A DNA stretch of 33,931 bases from Thermoflexales bacterium (GTDB lineage: Bacteria; Chloroflexota; Anaerolineae; B4-G1), in contig SKLM01000380.1 of NCBI GenBank assembly GCA_007123205.1, forward strand, positions 1-33,931, written 5' to 3'. Every line of letters starts with the position of its first letter. Within the stretch, counting starts at the first letter, position 1. Positions 7,110-20,711 of this stretch are shown here, in pieces. The notes beneath the pieces were generated by a model. The model was not told the DNA's origin. It made no database searches and was given only the letters and a program-made list of their open reading frames with translations. Made by a program: the position numbers and the translations under genes.

Positions 7110-8873
7110 TTATCCTCTCCCGACCAAGGCCTCCTTCAGTCCCAGACAGACGTCGGCCGCGCCCATCTTGAATAGCTTCGGCCAGTTGAAGGCCCGTACG
7201 TCGAACGGCAGATCTAGCTCCGTCTTCTCACAGACAGTGGACGTGTTTGCCCGGTCGATCTGTGGCTTGAGCGCCTGCAGCTCGCGCTCCAGCTCCTCAG
7301 GTGCGCACCGAGCCACCAACTCGTCGATCTGAGCCATCAGCGACACCGCTCGCTCGATGCGGTCCTCCGTCTCCGCGGCGATCTCCGGCTCCACCAGGCC
7401 GAACTTCGCCTTCAGTGCGTTCAGCCGCCGTCCGGCCTCATAAGTCACAGCCGCGATGTCGTCCCGGCTCATCCACTCCGTCTCATAGTTGAGAATGTGC
7501 TTCCAGGTTGGGGCCAGGAGCGCCCTCCGGTGCTCCTCCAGTGTACGGTAGCGGATGTTGTAGCCGTAGATCTCCGGCTTCTCGTAGAACAAGCTTCCCG
7601 GATCCACAAAGGGCGCCAGAGGCCCGATAAAGGGGATGAAACGCCCGTCGTTAAACCGGGTCAGCAGTTCCTCGCAGTAGTCGACGCCTTCGAGCACCGA
7701 TTCCCGCGTCTGCTGGGGAAGGCCGGTCATGAAGAACAGATCGAAGCGCCGGCACCCGACGTCCAGACACGCCTCGATCGTCCCCTCGATCGCCTCGTTC
7801 GAAAAGTTCTTGTGAAGCGCACGACGCACAGCCCCATCGTGTGACTCCGGTGAGAACTCGATCACGAAATCGGGCAGCGCGTCGGCCAACTCAGCGGCGA
7901 ACTCAGGGCTCATCGGCGTGAAGATCTCCAGCATGGCCTGACCCGGGTAGCCCCGCACGGCCCGCAGGAACCGACGCGCGTGGTCCACTCCCGCCTGCCG
8001 GATGTCGCCCAGTATGAACGCGGGCCCGCGGCTGATCTCGTACATGCGAAACAGATCCTCCGCCAGCCGCTCCGGCGAACGGTACGCCGGGGCATGCCGC
8101 CCGGAGATCAGCTCAGAGGCAGAGGCCGATCCCCCGCAGTACGCGCAGTCATGTCGGCAGCCCCGCACGCTCAGGGCAGCCATGACCGGATACTCCATCC
8201 AATGGTCGAAGGGCACGTGATTGAAGAAATCCCCGCTCCGCACAACAGAGCGCACCATCTGGCGGTAGTCCATGTCCAGGTGATCGAGGCTCGGAGGTAC
8301 GTACGTCTGAGGGTTGGCGTGCACCGTGCCCGATTCGTCCTGCCAGGTCAGATTGGGGATCCGCGACAGCACCGCCGGGTCGGCTCCACCGGATGTATCC
8401 AGCAGATGCTCCATCAGCCGGAGAAGTGGCTCCTCCGTCGAGTCGCCCCGCAGCACATAGTCGACCTGGGGGTAGCGGATCAACTCATCATGGAAGTAGC
8501 TCGCCGAGAACCCTCCGAAGACAATGGGCGCGTGGGGATGATGCCGTCTCACCAGATCGGCCACGGCCAGAGACCCGTGGGCGTGGGGCAACCAGTGAAG
8601 ATCGATGCCGAAGACCCGTGCCCCGCGCCGCGCAATGAACCGTTCGGCATCGAAGCGTTTCGAGCGGACCATCGCCGCCGCCAGATTGGCAATGCGCGTA
8701 CGAAGCCCCGCCTTCGTCAAATAGGAGGCCATCGTGGAGAACCCGACCGGATACATGTCGAAGATGGGCTCGGACGGTACCAGGTCGCTGGTCGGCCCCC
8801 ACAGTGTCGGACGACTCCGAAAGTCGTAGACAGTTGGCGCATGCAGGAAGATCAGATCCGCAGACGGCATCAC
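7110..8873 (-). CDS. B12-binding-domain radical SAM protein (Ta0216-like family)
   Basis: A 587-aa protein with an N-terminal cobalamin-binding-like Rossmann domain (~1-160: 'YPVGFSTMASYLTKAG', 'GIDLHWLPHAHG', 'IVFGGFSASYF') and a radical SAM core. The 4Fe-4S cysteines are C239-x3-C243-x2-C246 in 'VRGCRHDCAYCGG'. A helical C-terminal tail follows. Order and length match the family TIGRFAMs calls 'B12-binding domain/radical SAM domain protein, Ta0216 family'. Such proteins usually methylate or rearrange unreactive carbons, but the substrate here is unknown. The start is GTG 8873 (ATG 8870 is equally usable) after GGGAGG. It has its own promoter near 9100, and the neighbouring upstream gene encodes an MttB-type corrinoid methyltransferase, so the pair is B12-linked. 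Confidence 0.9.
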   Translation of the reverse strand: MMPSADLIFLHAPTVYDFRSRPTLWGPTSDLVPSEPIFDMYPVGFSTMASYLTKAGLRTRIANLAAAMVRSKRFDAERFIARRGARVFGIDLHWLPHAHGSLAVADLVRRHHPHAPIVFGGFSASYFHDELIRYPQVDYVLRGDSTEEPLLRLMEHLLDTSGGADPAVLSRIPNLTWQDESGTVHANPQTYVPPSLDHLDMDYRQMVRSVVRSGDFFNHVPFDHWMEYPVMAALSVRGCRHDCAYCGGSASASELISGRHAPAYRSPERLAEDLFRMYEISRGPAFILGDIRQAGVDHARRFLRAVRGYPGQAMLEIFTPMSPEFAAELADALPDFVIEFSPESHDGAVRRALHKNFSNEAIEGTIEACLDVGCRRFDLFFMTGLPQQTRESVLEGVDYCEELLTRFNDGRFIPFIGPLAPFVDPGSLFYEKPEIYGYNIRYRTLEEHRRALLAPTWKHILNYETEWMSRDDIAAVTYEAGRRLNALKAKFGLVEPEIAAETEDRIERAVSLMAQIDELVARCAPEELERELQALKPQIDRANTSTVCEKTELDLPFDVRAFNWPKLFKMGAADVCLGLKEALVGRG

Positions 8874-9248: not shown

Positions 9249-10688
9249 CTACGACAACCCCCCGGACAGCTTACCGAGCTCCGCGTCGAGGGCGGAGGCC
9301 AGGGGCTTCACCCGGTGCGATCCGATCAGATCCCTGGCATACTCGCGCGCTCTCGCCGCGTAGTCGGCTGCCCCGTCAGCTGACCAGGTGTCGTAGTCCG
9401 TGTGATCCACGACAAGAGGCCGCCACATCTTGGGACGCAGGTACTGAAGCGTATGCTCATGCGACAGAAACTCACCCGCCGGCCCGATCTCGGCGATCAC
9501 CGCTGCCGCCAGCGTCCCGTCCGAGACCTCGAAGCCTTCCAAGAACCGCTTGACCCAGCGGATCTGCTCGGCACCCAGCACGATGCTCTCGAGGCTCCCC
9601 GTGAGACCAGAGTCGAGATATCCCACGTCGTGTATCAGATTGGTGCCGGCCAGGGCAGCCACCAACAGACTCCCGGCGTACTCGGCACCCGCCTGAGCGT
9701 CGACCCCTTTGCTGTCGCTGGCCCCACCGGTACCGAACACCGGGAGACCGTAGTGTCGGGCCATCTCGGCCATCACCAAGTCGTTCAGTCTCCACTCCGC
9801 CGAGCCGTAAGGAAAGAGCCCGGTCCTCATGTTGAGCTGGCTCACACACGCGCCGGTGATGAACGGGGCACCCGTCCGTTGTGCCTGGTGCATCACCAGA
9901 CCGCCGAGCATCTCGGCCAGGGCCAGGGACAATGAGCCGGCCAGTGTAAAGGGCCCACTCGCGCCACACATGATCGTCGGGACGTAGATCAGTGGCACCT
10001 CGTGGTCCGCGCAGAAGATGAGCCGCTCGACCGCTTGTCGGTCGTGTTGAAGTGGTGAGACGAACTGACCATAGAGAACGTAGTTCGGCCGCTCTCGAAA
10101 GGCCTCCTGCCCACCCGCTACCAGGCAGGCCATTGCATGGACACGGTCCAAAGACTCCAGACCCGAGAAACTCGTCATGATCACCGGTTTGCCCGTGTTG
10201 CGCAGGATGGTGTGGTACTGACTGGCCTCAGCATCCTCATTGGGCGCATCGGCCGGCAGCGCAAACGACATGACGAAATCGATCTCGTCCAGCGCATCGC
10301 ACAACCGGGCAGAACACTCCACGTCCTCCAGCCGGGACTCCCGCCGCTCTCCCGTGTGGGGGTCAATCGTGTAGATCAGGTCGGACCCGGTGCCGAAGTA
10401 GATCTGGTGGGGTCCCAGACGCATGGCGGGATCTCCGTGGCGATCGAACACAACCACGTCCTTATTCACTCCATCCAACGCCTTGTTGACCATGTCGGCC
10501 GACATAGTCACCCGTGTTCCCCCCATCAGCCTGGCCCCGGCATCCACCAGCTTCGCCCGCATCTCCGGGTGGTGGACGTTCAGCCCGGTGTCCTCCAGGA
10601 TCTCCATCGCCCTCTGGTGGAGGCTCTTCATCATGGCCTCGTTCATCAAGGTCAAACTCGGCCGCCACTCACAAATCTCGTCGCTCAT
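9249..10688 (-). CDS. Trimethylamine methyltransferase family (MttB-like) protein, non-pyrrolysine
   Basis: A 479-aa member of the MttB superfamily, which transfers a methyl group from a methylated amine to a corrinoid protein. Family marks include the N-terminal 'LHQRAMEILEDTGLNVHHPEMRAKLVDAGA', 'FGTGSDLIYTIDPHTGERR', 'PTIMCGASGPFTLAGSLSLALAE' and 'VFGTGGASDSKGVDAQAG'. No in-frame TAG falls inside the protein, so it is a non-pyrrolysine member. Known ones demethylate quaternary amines such as glycine betaine, carnitine or proline betaine. The actual substrate cannot be read from sequence. ATG 10688 has AGGAGG 6 nt upstream. The track's 71-residue extension is not coding-like. No corrinoid protein gene is adjacent, so its partner must be elsewhere. 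Confidence 0.88.
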   Translation of the reverse strand: MSDEICEWRPSLTLMNEAMMKSLHQRAMEILEDTGLNVHHPEMRAKLVDAGARLMGGTRVTMSADMVNKALDGVNKDVVVFDRHGDPAMRLGPHQIYFGTGSDLIYTIDPHTGERRESRLEDVECSARLCDALDEIDFVMSFALPADAPNEDAEASQYHTILRNTGKPVIMTSFSGLESLDRVHAMACLVAGGQEAFRERPNYVLYGQFVSPLQHDRQAVERLIFCADHEVPLIYVPTIMCGASGPFTLAGSLSLALAEMLGGLVMHQAQRTGAPFITGACVSQLNMRTGLFPYGSAEWRLNDLVMAEMARHYGLPVFGTGGASDSKGVDAQAGAEYAGSLLVAALAGTNLIHDVGYLDSGLTGSLESIVLGAEQIRWVKRFLEGFEVSDGTLAAAVIAEIGPAGEFLSHEHTLQYLRPKMWRPLVVDHTDYDTWSADGAADYAARAREYARDLIGSHRVKPLASALDAELGKLSGGLS

Positions 10689-10729
10689 AGTCGACCTCCT
10701 CTGCCTTCGTCCGTCCCTGCATTCCAATA

Positions 10730-10760
10730 GGGAGGCGGATCGCCCAGGGCTCCGCCTCCC
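10730..10760 (-). promoter_or_regulatory. 10-bp perfect stem-loop in the leader of the mttB-like gene
   Basis: GGGAGGCGGA (10730-10739) and TCCGCCTCCC (10751-10760) are exact reverse complements around an 11-nt loop. The stem sits about 42-72 nt upstream of the ATG. No T-run follows on the minus strand, so it looks more like an mRNA-leader structure or a protein-binding site than a terminator. Confidence 0.4.
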
Positions 10761-10999
10761 GCGTAGACCTCTCTTCAGTCCGCCGACGCCGCCTGACCCT
10801 TGGCGCGTGCCTGTCGCGAGGAGCGACGGCTTGGCGTGGTCCCCTGCGATATACCCCACACAGTAGTACCTGGCAGCAGGCAGCCCGCTCAGCGGAGGCA
10901 ACCGCCAATTGCCAGAGCCTGGGACCGGAGCAGCCGCGGAAGGGCAGCCACTTCAGCGACCAGGAATCCCACTATCGTTGCTGCCACCATTGCAGGCCC

Positions 11000-18494: not shown

Positions 18495-19238
18495 TCACAT
18501 TATCAGGCCACCGTCGACGGTGAGAACCTCACCGGTGATGAAGGAGGCCTGATCAGATGCCAGGAAAGCCACCGCACAGGCGACCTCTTCGGGCCGCCCC
18601 ATGCGCCCCAGAGGCGTCAGCTCGATACCCCGCTGCTTGAGGTCTTCCGGCAGGTCGGCCGTCAGCCCGGTCGGTACGAACCCGGGCGCAACCACGTTGA
18701 CGGTGATGTTACGGGGACCGAGTTCCTTGGCAAGGCTCTTGGTAAAGCCGATCATCCCAGCCTTAGAGGCGGCGTAGTTCGTCTGGCCGCCCTGCCCAGC
18801 GATGCCGGACACGGAGCTCACATTCACAATCCGTCCCGAGCGCTGGCGCACCATCGTGCGGGAGACCGCTTTGCAGCAGTTGAAGACACCTTTGAGGTTG
18901 GTCCGCAACACCACATCCCAGTCGTCTTCCTTCATCAGCATTAGCAGCTGATCCCGCGTCGTGCCAGCATTGTTGACCAGTATATCGACCTTGCCGTAAG
19001 TGTCAATCGCCGTCTTGATCAGGTCGGCCGCCTCATCGAGATCACCGACGTCGGCCTTTACGGCAACAGCCCGACCACCCTCAGCTTCCACAGCTTCCAC
19101 CACCTCACACGCTGCTGCAGCGCTGGTGTGGTAGTTGACGATAACGCTGGCACCACGCCGCGCGAGTTCAAGCGCGATGGCCCGACCGATTCCGCCCGAT
19201 GCGCCGGTAACGATGGCTACTTTGTCCTCCAAATCCAT
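18495..19238 (-). CDS. fabG: 3-oxoacyl-ACP reductase FabG
   Basis: FabG is the NADPH-dependent reductase for 3-oxoacyl-ACP in type II fatty acid synthesis. The 247-aa short-chain dehydrogenase has the cofactor motif 'TGASGGIG' near the N-terminus, 'NNAG' (~residue 88), and the catalytic Ser-Tyr-Lys set in 'NVSSVSGIAGQGGQTNYAASKAG'. The C-terminus 'FITGEVLTVDGGLIM' is typical FabG. ATG 19238 follows GGAGG by 5 nt. The track's 13-residue extension is not coding-like. It is downstream of fabD, with 110 bp between them. That gap holds TGACAC-agc-GTGTCA (19272-19286), a small inverted repeat. Confidence 0.95.
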   Translation of the reverse strand: MDLEDKVAIVTGASGGIGRAIALELARRGASVIVNYHTSAAAACEVVEAVEAEGGRAVAVKADVGDLDEAADLIKTAIDTYGKVDILVNNAGTTRDQLLMLMKEDDWDVVLRTNLKGVFNCCKAVSRTMVRQRSGRIVNVSSVSGIAGQGGQTNYAASKAGMIGFTKSLAKELGPRNITVNVVAPGFVPTGLTADLPEDLKQRGIELTPLGRMGRPEEVACAVAFLASDQASFITGEVLTVDGGLIM

Positions 19239-19348: not shown

Positions 19349-20266
19349 TTAGGCGAGCAGATCAGCAGTGGATAATCCCTGCACCGAGCGGTCGATGCGA
19401 CGCAGTAGACCGATCAGCACGTTCTTCGGGCCGACCTCGACAAAGCGGTCCACACCCTGAGTGACCATCCACTGCACCGATTCGGTCCAGGACACCGGAG
19501 AGGTCAGCTGTTGGGCCAGGACAGCACGAACCGCCGCAATATCGGTGACGGGGCGCGCTGTCGCGTTTGCCACGATTGGGATGTGGGGCTCCTCAAAGCG
19601 CGCAGTTCTCAGCTCCTCCTTGAAGGCCTCAGCCGCCTCACGCATCAGCGGCGAATGGGCTGCGATACTCACTGGCAAGCGGACAATGCGCTTGGCACCC
19701 CGCGCCGCCGCAAGCTCGGACGCCCGCTCCAGAGGGACTCTGGCCCCGGAGATAACGAGTTGTCCCGGGCAGTTGTCATTGGCCACGGCAACGTGCTCAC
19801 CAGTCTCCTGCCGGGCAGCCGCGCAAGCTTCCTCCAGCGGCTTCCTCTCCAAGCCGAGCACCGCTGCCATGCCGCCGGGATTCTGCTCCCCGGCCTGTTT
19901 CATCAACTGTCCACGACGCCGCACCAGGCGCAACGCGTCCTCAAGAGGGAGCGCCCCCGCAGCCACCAAAGCACTGAACTCCCCCATGCTGTGACCCGCC
20001 ACGTAGGCAGGAGCATGCGTGTCGTGCTGGGTTATGACACGGAGCGCCGCCACACTGGCAGCAAGAATCGCGGGCTGTGTGTTGACCGTGTCATCGAGAG
20101 CCTCGGAAGGCCCCTCGAAACAAAGCTCCGAAAGAAGAATACCCAGGATATCGTCAGCCTGGGCAAATACGTCGCGGGCCCTGGGAAATCTCTCGTAGAG
20201 CTCGTATCCCATGCCCACATATTGAGAGCCTTGTCCGGGAAAGAGATAGGCACACTTGTATGACAG
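19349..20266 (-). CDS. fabD: Malonyl-CoA:ACP transacylase FabD, probable CTG start
   Basis: FabD moves malonyl groups from CoA to acyl carrier protein. Motifs: 'LFPGQGSQYVGMG' (oxyanion-hole GQGSQ), 'AGHSMGEFSALVAAG' with the nucleophile Ser, 'VANDNCPGQLVISG', 'AAHSPLM' (catalytic His), 'EVGPKNVL'. The track starts at GTG 20218, which drops the GQGSQ motif. The frame upstream is open only to a TAG and contains no ATG, GTG or TTG, but two CTG codons. CTG 20266-20264 gives '(M)SYKCAYLFPGQGSQ', the normal FabD N-terminus, and AGGGGG lies 6 nt upstream. So I annotate a CTG start (305 aa). A sequencing error or true use of CTG are the alternatives. Confidence 0.9.
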   Translation of the reverse strand: MSYKCAYLFPGQGSQYVGMGYELYERFPRARDVFAQADDILGILLSELCFEGPSEALDDTVNTQPAILAASVAALRVITQHDTHAPAYVAGHSMGEFSALVAAGALPLEDALRLVRRRGQLMKQAGEQNPGGMAAVLGLERKPLEEACAAARQETGEHVAVANDNCPGQLVISGARVPLERASELAAARGAKRIVRLPVSIAAHSPLMREAAEAFKEELRTARFEEPHIPIVANATARPVTDIAAVRAVLAQQLTSPVSWTESVQWMVTQGVDRFVEVGPKNVLIGLLRRIDRSVQGLSTADLLA

Positions 20267-20362
20267 CAGCTCCCCCCTCTAGACTGTTAAAGCTATCTTG
20301 GTGAACGTTGCCTCTGATCTATGAACGGCAGCTCTAGTCCTCAGGAGTCCTCCCCTTAGAGG

Positions 20363-20548
20363 CTATTCTTCCTCAATCTGGATAACCTGCTCACCGCGAT
20401 ACGTCCCACAGCTCATGCAGACGTGGTGGGGTCGCTTTGGAGCCCCACACCAATCGCACGTCACCAAACTGCGCGCCCTGATCTTCCACTGACTGCTGCG
20501 TTTGCGACCTCTTGATTTTGAGATTCTTACTTTTGGGACAGCACCCAT
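20363..20548 (-). CDS. rpmF: 50S ribosomal protein L32
   Basis: A 61-aa L32: N-terminus 'MGAVPKVRISKSRGRKRSSQ' and a zinc ribbon 'CDWCGAPKRPHHVCMSCG' with four cysteines, finishing 'GTYRGEQVIQIEEE'. The track's extension to 20602 is not L32-like. ATG 20548 has an AAGGAG about 12 nt upstream, a little long. It is the first gene after a consensus promoter at 20684-20711 and is followed by fabD. rpmF beside fatty-acid genes is a widespread bacterial arrangement, and co-regulation with growth is usual. Confidence 0.95.
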   Translation of the reverse strand: MGAVPKVRISKSRGRKRSSQWKIRARSLVTCDWCGAPKRPHHVCMSCGTYRGEQVIQIEEE

Positions 20549-20683: not shown

Positions 20684-20711
20684 ATTATAGAGGCCCGGAT
20701 CCAGGTGTCAA
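20684..20711 (-). promoter_or_regulatory. Consensus sigma-70 promoter for rpmF-fabD-fabG-asp23-nusB
   Basis: On the minus strand TTGACA (20706-20711), a 16-nt spacer, and TATAAT (20684-20689): both hexamers are perfect consensus. The start near 20677 gives a leader of about 129 nt before rpmF. It lies 32 bp beyond the end of the upstream coiled-coil gene, which separates this operon from the coaD one. Confidence 0.85.

Follow-up and report, generated by a model that had tools for sequence, protein, structure and literature searches.

A CTG codon shared by two species is very probably the translation start of fabD in a Thermoflexales bacterium

There are few annotated CTG starts; 20 of nearly 85,000 genes (0.024%) is the figure cited in PMC11983097. 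The closest described case is the rep gene of FIB plasmids, whose CTG start follows a good ribosome-binding site and was proven by a CTG to CTC mutation (PMC11983097). Annotations usually begin this gene wrongly, at a GTG 14 codons further on (PMC11983097). Non-standard starts can also be regulatory, as in Streptomyces sigR, where a GTC start is repressed by IF3, and in infC with its ATT start (PMC5472188). A strong Shine-Dalgarno (SD) sequence paired with a weak start has been described in S. aureus (PMC13009471), and this pairing is a general compensatory trend (PMC5622118). The gene reported here, fabD of a Thermoflexales bacterium, resembles these systems in part. Its first GTG lies 16 codons downstream of a CTG. 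It differs from rep, a plasmid copy-control gene of E. coli proven by mutation, in being a chromosomal fatty-acid gene of the Chloroflexota that is known from its sequence. Like sigR, it is a chromosomal gene with a conserved non-standard start that is missed by annotation; unlike sigR, the codon is CTG and not GTC, and IF3 control, shown for sigR, is only possible for fabD. A weak start with a strong or extended SD is also found in infC (ATT/AUA) and in ccpN/cvfC1 of S. aureus (PMC13009471). However, those codons (AUU, AUA) have a third-position mismatch and known regulatory roles, whereas CUG has a first-position mismatch. Among the papers searched, none described a CTG start for fabD.

The window, the whole stretch of DNA analysed (33,931 nucleotides), comes from the MAG GCA_007123205.1 (G000), which has 3.23 Mb in 454 contigs and is 89% complete. 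Its sister species in the same genus (G001) is a Thermoflexales MAG from a separate assembly, with a FabD protein that is 85% identical. The genus comparison covers these two genomes, both MAGs, as assembled sequence. The other close matches are Anaerolineae/Chloroflexota MAGs. The survey of fabD starts included 107 fabD motif matches in the loci examined, with some genomes counted twice.

FabD carries out a core step of fatty-acid synthesis. By profile, the protein encoded at this locus is FabD, and its enzymatic activity is predicted. It reached 336.3 bits against the TIGR00128 equivalog (cut-off 260.9), with protein residues 4-293 aligned to profile positions 2-288 of 290, and it also matches Pfam Acyl_transf_1. 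Alignments to solved FabD chains begin at query residues 3-6. The FPGQGSQ and GHSMGE (GHSxGE active site) motifs are both in one frame, and the LFPGQGSQ segment is conserved in every fabD relative compared. This locus is the sole fabD match in the G000 assembly, and the single-copy gene is presumably essential. The features are listed in Table 1.

After the upstream stop, the minus-strand fabD frame continues with AGG GGG GAG, CTG (20269) and CTG (20266), then TCA TAC AAG TGT GCC TAT CTC and TTT CCC GGA CAA GGC TCT CAA. Reading this frame confirmed the first-pass annotation, which had claimed that there is no ATG, GTG or TTG between the TAG and FPGQGSQ, just the two CTG codons. The first in-frame ATG, GTG or TTG is GTG 20218, downstream of GQGSQ, and this motif is part of FabD only if translation starts upstream of that codon. 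The same annotation had proposed CTG 20266 as the start, with normal FabD length and an AGGGGG 6 nt upstream. Both details held: the product has 305 amino acids aligned from profile position 2, and AGGGGG was found where it had been placed. The predicted N-terminal peptide is (M)SYKCAYLFPGQGSQ. Anti-SD pairing is -9.7 kcal/mol for fabD of G000 and -9.2 kcal/mol for that of G001; genes of the same genome that start with ATG have a median of -6.5.

Table 1. Features of the fabD region and of a second candidate gene (positions in the window unless a locus is named)
Feature	Position	Strand	Remarks
fabD CDS (malonyl-CoA:ACP transacylase)	19349..20266	-	from CTG 20266; stop included in coordinates
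Proposed fabD start, CTG	20264..20266	-	no normal start in any frame
Second CTG, farther upstream	20267..20269	-	less likely start
Shine-Dalgarno AGGGGG	20273..20278	-	6 nt from CTG 20266
In-frame stop TAG closing the fabD frame upstream	20279..20281	-	read from sequence
GTG, start expected from standard gene callers	20216..20218	-	behind GQGSQ; ORF list 19349..20218
rpmF (ribosomal protein L32)	20363..20548	-	Pfam Ribosomal_L32p; upstream of fabD
fabG	18495..19238	-	TIGR01830; downstream of fabD; family profile prefers ATG 19238 over GTG 19277
Sigma-70-like promoter TTGACA-16-TATAAT	20684..20711	-	upstream of rpmF; consensus scan 12/12; shuffles give 0.3 sites
InhA-like gene	L162:7249-9285 (G000); L218:4848-6881 (G001)	- (G000)	second candidate CTG start

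The sister species also has CTG at the codon of 20266, and CCA at the codon of 20269. A similar Shine-Dalgarno run precedes its CTG, with AGGGGG at a spacing of 5 nt. A one-base indel separates the two species in the G run just upstream of the CTG. This indel breaks the frame between them, and thus the sequence upstream of the CTG does not appear to be coding. The substitutions agree with this boundary. Downstream of the CTG (600 nt), they fall 23/11/53 on the three codon positions, a third-position bias, and upstream they number 3/5/5 with no such bias. The presence of this CTG in the second species, together with the lack of a normal start in any G000 frame, supports the claim that fabD starts at CTG.

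The first-pass annotation had suggested aligning the N-terminus with relatives. This gave, outside the genus, TTG or ATG at or near the same codon. TTG occupies exactly this codon in G007 and G009, and in G002 it sits one codon farther upstream. The G004 gene likewise carries TTG here, with an ATG following three codons on. In G003, G006, G008 and G010 there is an ATG 5 to 9 codons ahead of the motif. Among the 107 fabD matches, only G000 and G001 have no normal start at the normal place. L080 was considered as another fabD of this kind and rejected, as it has an upstream ATG. The start position is therefore old. By sequence comparison, the relatives fix 20266 as the putative ancestral start position, with only the codon differing. 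The TTG-start genes of G007, G009 and G002 are the same gene with a weak start at the same codon or one codon off; TTG is a standard start, whereas CTG of G000 is one T-to-C change further. The CTG was probably derived from a UUG start by this change, which would predate the divergence of the two species of the genus. A switch from UUG to CUG has been reconstructed for 1 in 2,468 UUG starts, and one from AUG to CUG for 2 in 61,358 (PMC5622118).

Other explanations of the missing start can be considered. A normal start here or upstream could be hidden by a wrong base or by an indel in the G run. The fragmented state of the MAG and the one-base difference in G-run length between the species would fit such an error. 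However, the three G000 frames upstream of CTG 20266 run into stops at 15, 23 and 55 nt before any ATG, GTG or TTG. Since no upstream frame offers a normal start, none can be rescued by an indel in the G run or by a frameshift close by. This also answers the objection, raised in the first-pass annotation, that translation might begin upstream through a frameshift. In addition, the two separate assemblies agree on the CTG, and thus an assembly or base error is very improbable. The start could instead be the adjacent CTG 20269, which is in frame with fabD, or, for the sister species, a TTG in frame 60 nt (20 codons) before its CTG, with no stop between the two in G001. CTG 20269 is CCA in G001 and is only 3 nt from AGGGGG. 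The TTG extension is not conserved, and in G000 the indel and a stop interrupt its frame. A start at either of these codons is very improbable, and the upstream TTG is a minor alternative for G001 only.

Translation could also begin at GTG 20218 with a shortened FabD, or fabD could be decaying and non-functional. No normal start precedes GTG 20218, which G001 shares. The SD of this GTG is weak (-3.7 kcal/mol), however, and a start there would drop LFPGQGSQ, which lies within the alignments to solved FabD chains. The codons upstream of GTG 20218 are conserved between G000 and G001 at the protein level. Decay is opposed by the intact remainder of fabD and by the finding of no other fabD in the G000 assembly. 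Both readings are very improbable. Counting against the CTG start, a CUG in a dnaA leader gives toeprints yet is unused in vivo (PMC8443254); a normal AUG existed there, and G000 fabD has none.

It is highly likely that fabD is translated from CTG 20266 by fMet initiation that is inefficient and compensated by the strong SD, at a codon that was probably once UUG. We infer that ribosomes initiate at this codon. Ordinary fMet-tRNA would initiate at CUG 20266, and the first residue would be Met. Initiation here would be less efficient than at ATG, GTG or TTG, and the strong, well-spaced Shine-Dalgarno would help the weak start. In structures with an initiator tRNA variant, first-position pairing on CUG was poor (PMC11497404), and complexes on CUG were reported to be less stable than those on AUG, GUG and UUG (PMC11497404). 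In E. coli, expression from CUG is reported to be about ten times lower than from UUG (Hecht et al., cited in PMC11983097). From these published measurements of stability and expression, FabD output per mRNA is probably lowered by the CUG start. They fit the cautious suggestion of the first-pass annotation that the CTG may limit FabD expression and malonyl-ACP supply. An altered initiator tRNA was considered and rejected for G001. The initiator-type tRNA-Met of G001 (L174:5857-5932) has the usual CAT anticodon, and this tRNA evidence is from G001 only; its counterpart was searched for in the G000 assembly (89% complete) and was not found. A structured leader or riboswitch was also rejected: Rfam gave no hit even at E = 1, and the predicted fold of the leader was no better than that of shuffled sequences (z = +1.15).

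The combination of a non-standard start codon and a strong SD in fabD is that of the IF3-controlled sigR/infC type. An ATT start of infC is a classical IF3-controlled, autoregulated start. In G000, the N-terminus of infC offers no ATG, GTG or TTG, and the gene begins with an ATT preceded by AGGAGGT (L243 5472-5470, minus strand). This ATT start of infC makes it probable that IF3 discriminates between start codons in this organism. We infer that FabD output may be reduced and sensitive to IF3. A further step would be that FabD synthesis is held down and tuned by IF3 discrimination against the conserved CUG, that membrane lipid synthesis follows the state of the translation machinery in this way, with fabD probably on one transcript with rpmF, and that CTG is used in this manner by several genes of the genus. 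This broader proposal is unlikely.

Start codons of the two species were scanned over approximately 0.66 Mb (G000) and 0.48 Mb (G001), in search of cases where a strong SD and a non-standard codon come ahead of any well-placed normal start. The scan set was 73 closed gene pairs, filtered on the third-position (coding) substitution pattern. The only CTG/CTG case among them was fabD. An InhA-like gene has a GTG start in G000 and CTG in G001, with an SD of about -10 in both. A third match, ATC in a truncated pair, was unconvincing. Genus-wide use of CTG was thus not seen in the 73 gene pairs. CTG starts in the genus are rare and perhaps not unique to fabD, the second case resting on one genome. 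In G001, a TATAAT lies just upstream of the InhA-like gene, and transcription from it would begin at or after the sole in-frame GTG farther upstream.

The gene order is rpmF, a 96-nt spacer (stop to CTG), fabD, fabG and nusB. The promoter upstream of rpmF has the full consensus, and rpmF-fabD-fabG is therefore probably one transcript. The spacer (20267-20362) is well conserved between G000 and G001, for example TTCACCAnGATAnCnTTAACAnTCTAGA, and more so than expected if neutral. In three ATG genomes the gap between rpmF and fabD is short (3 nt in G008, about 10 in G006 and about 14 in G003), and in the TTG/CTG genomes it is about 60 to 96 nt. Close spacing tends to go with ATG and 60-96 nt with TTG/CTG (L001-L009, L014), but there are too few genomes for a claim and there are exceptions, as G010 and G004 combine ATG with a longer gap. 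Elsewhere in the window, an MttB-family (trimethylamine methyltransferase-like) gene adjoins a B12-binding radical SAM gene (9249-10901 and 7110-8873).

The CTG start of fabD is very probably a rare, unusual and conserved one, but such starts are already known elsewhere. Gene callers that are restricted to ATG, GTG and TTG cannot report CTG starts. Default gene calling at this locus would give a FabD without its GQGSQ motif. CTG starts can be recovered by comparing sister genomes at their conserved N-termini, as was probably the case for fabD. If it is true that the weak start of fabD is regulatory, it would place a translation-level control on malonyl-ACP supply.
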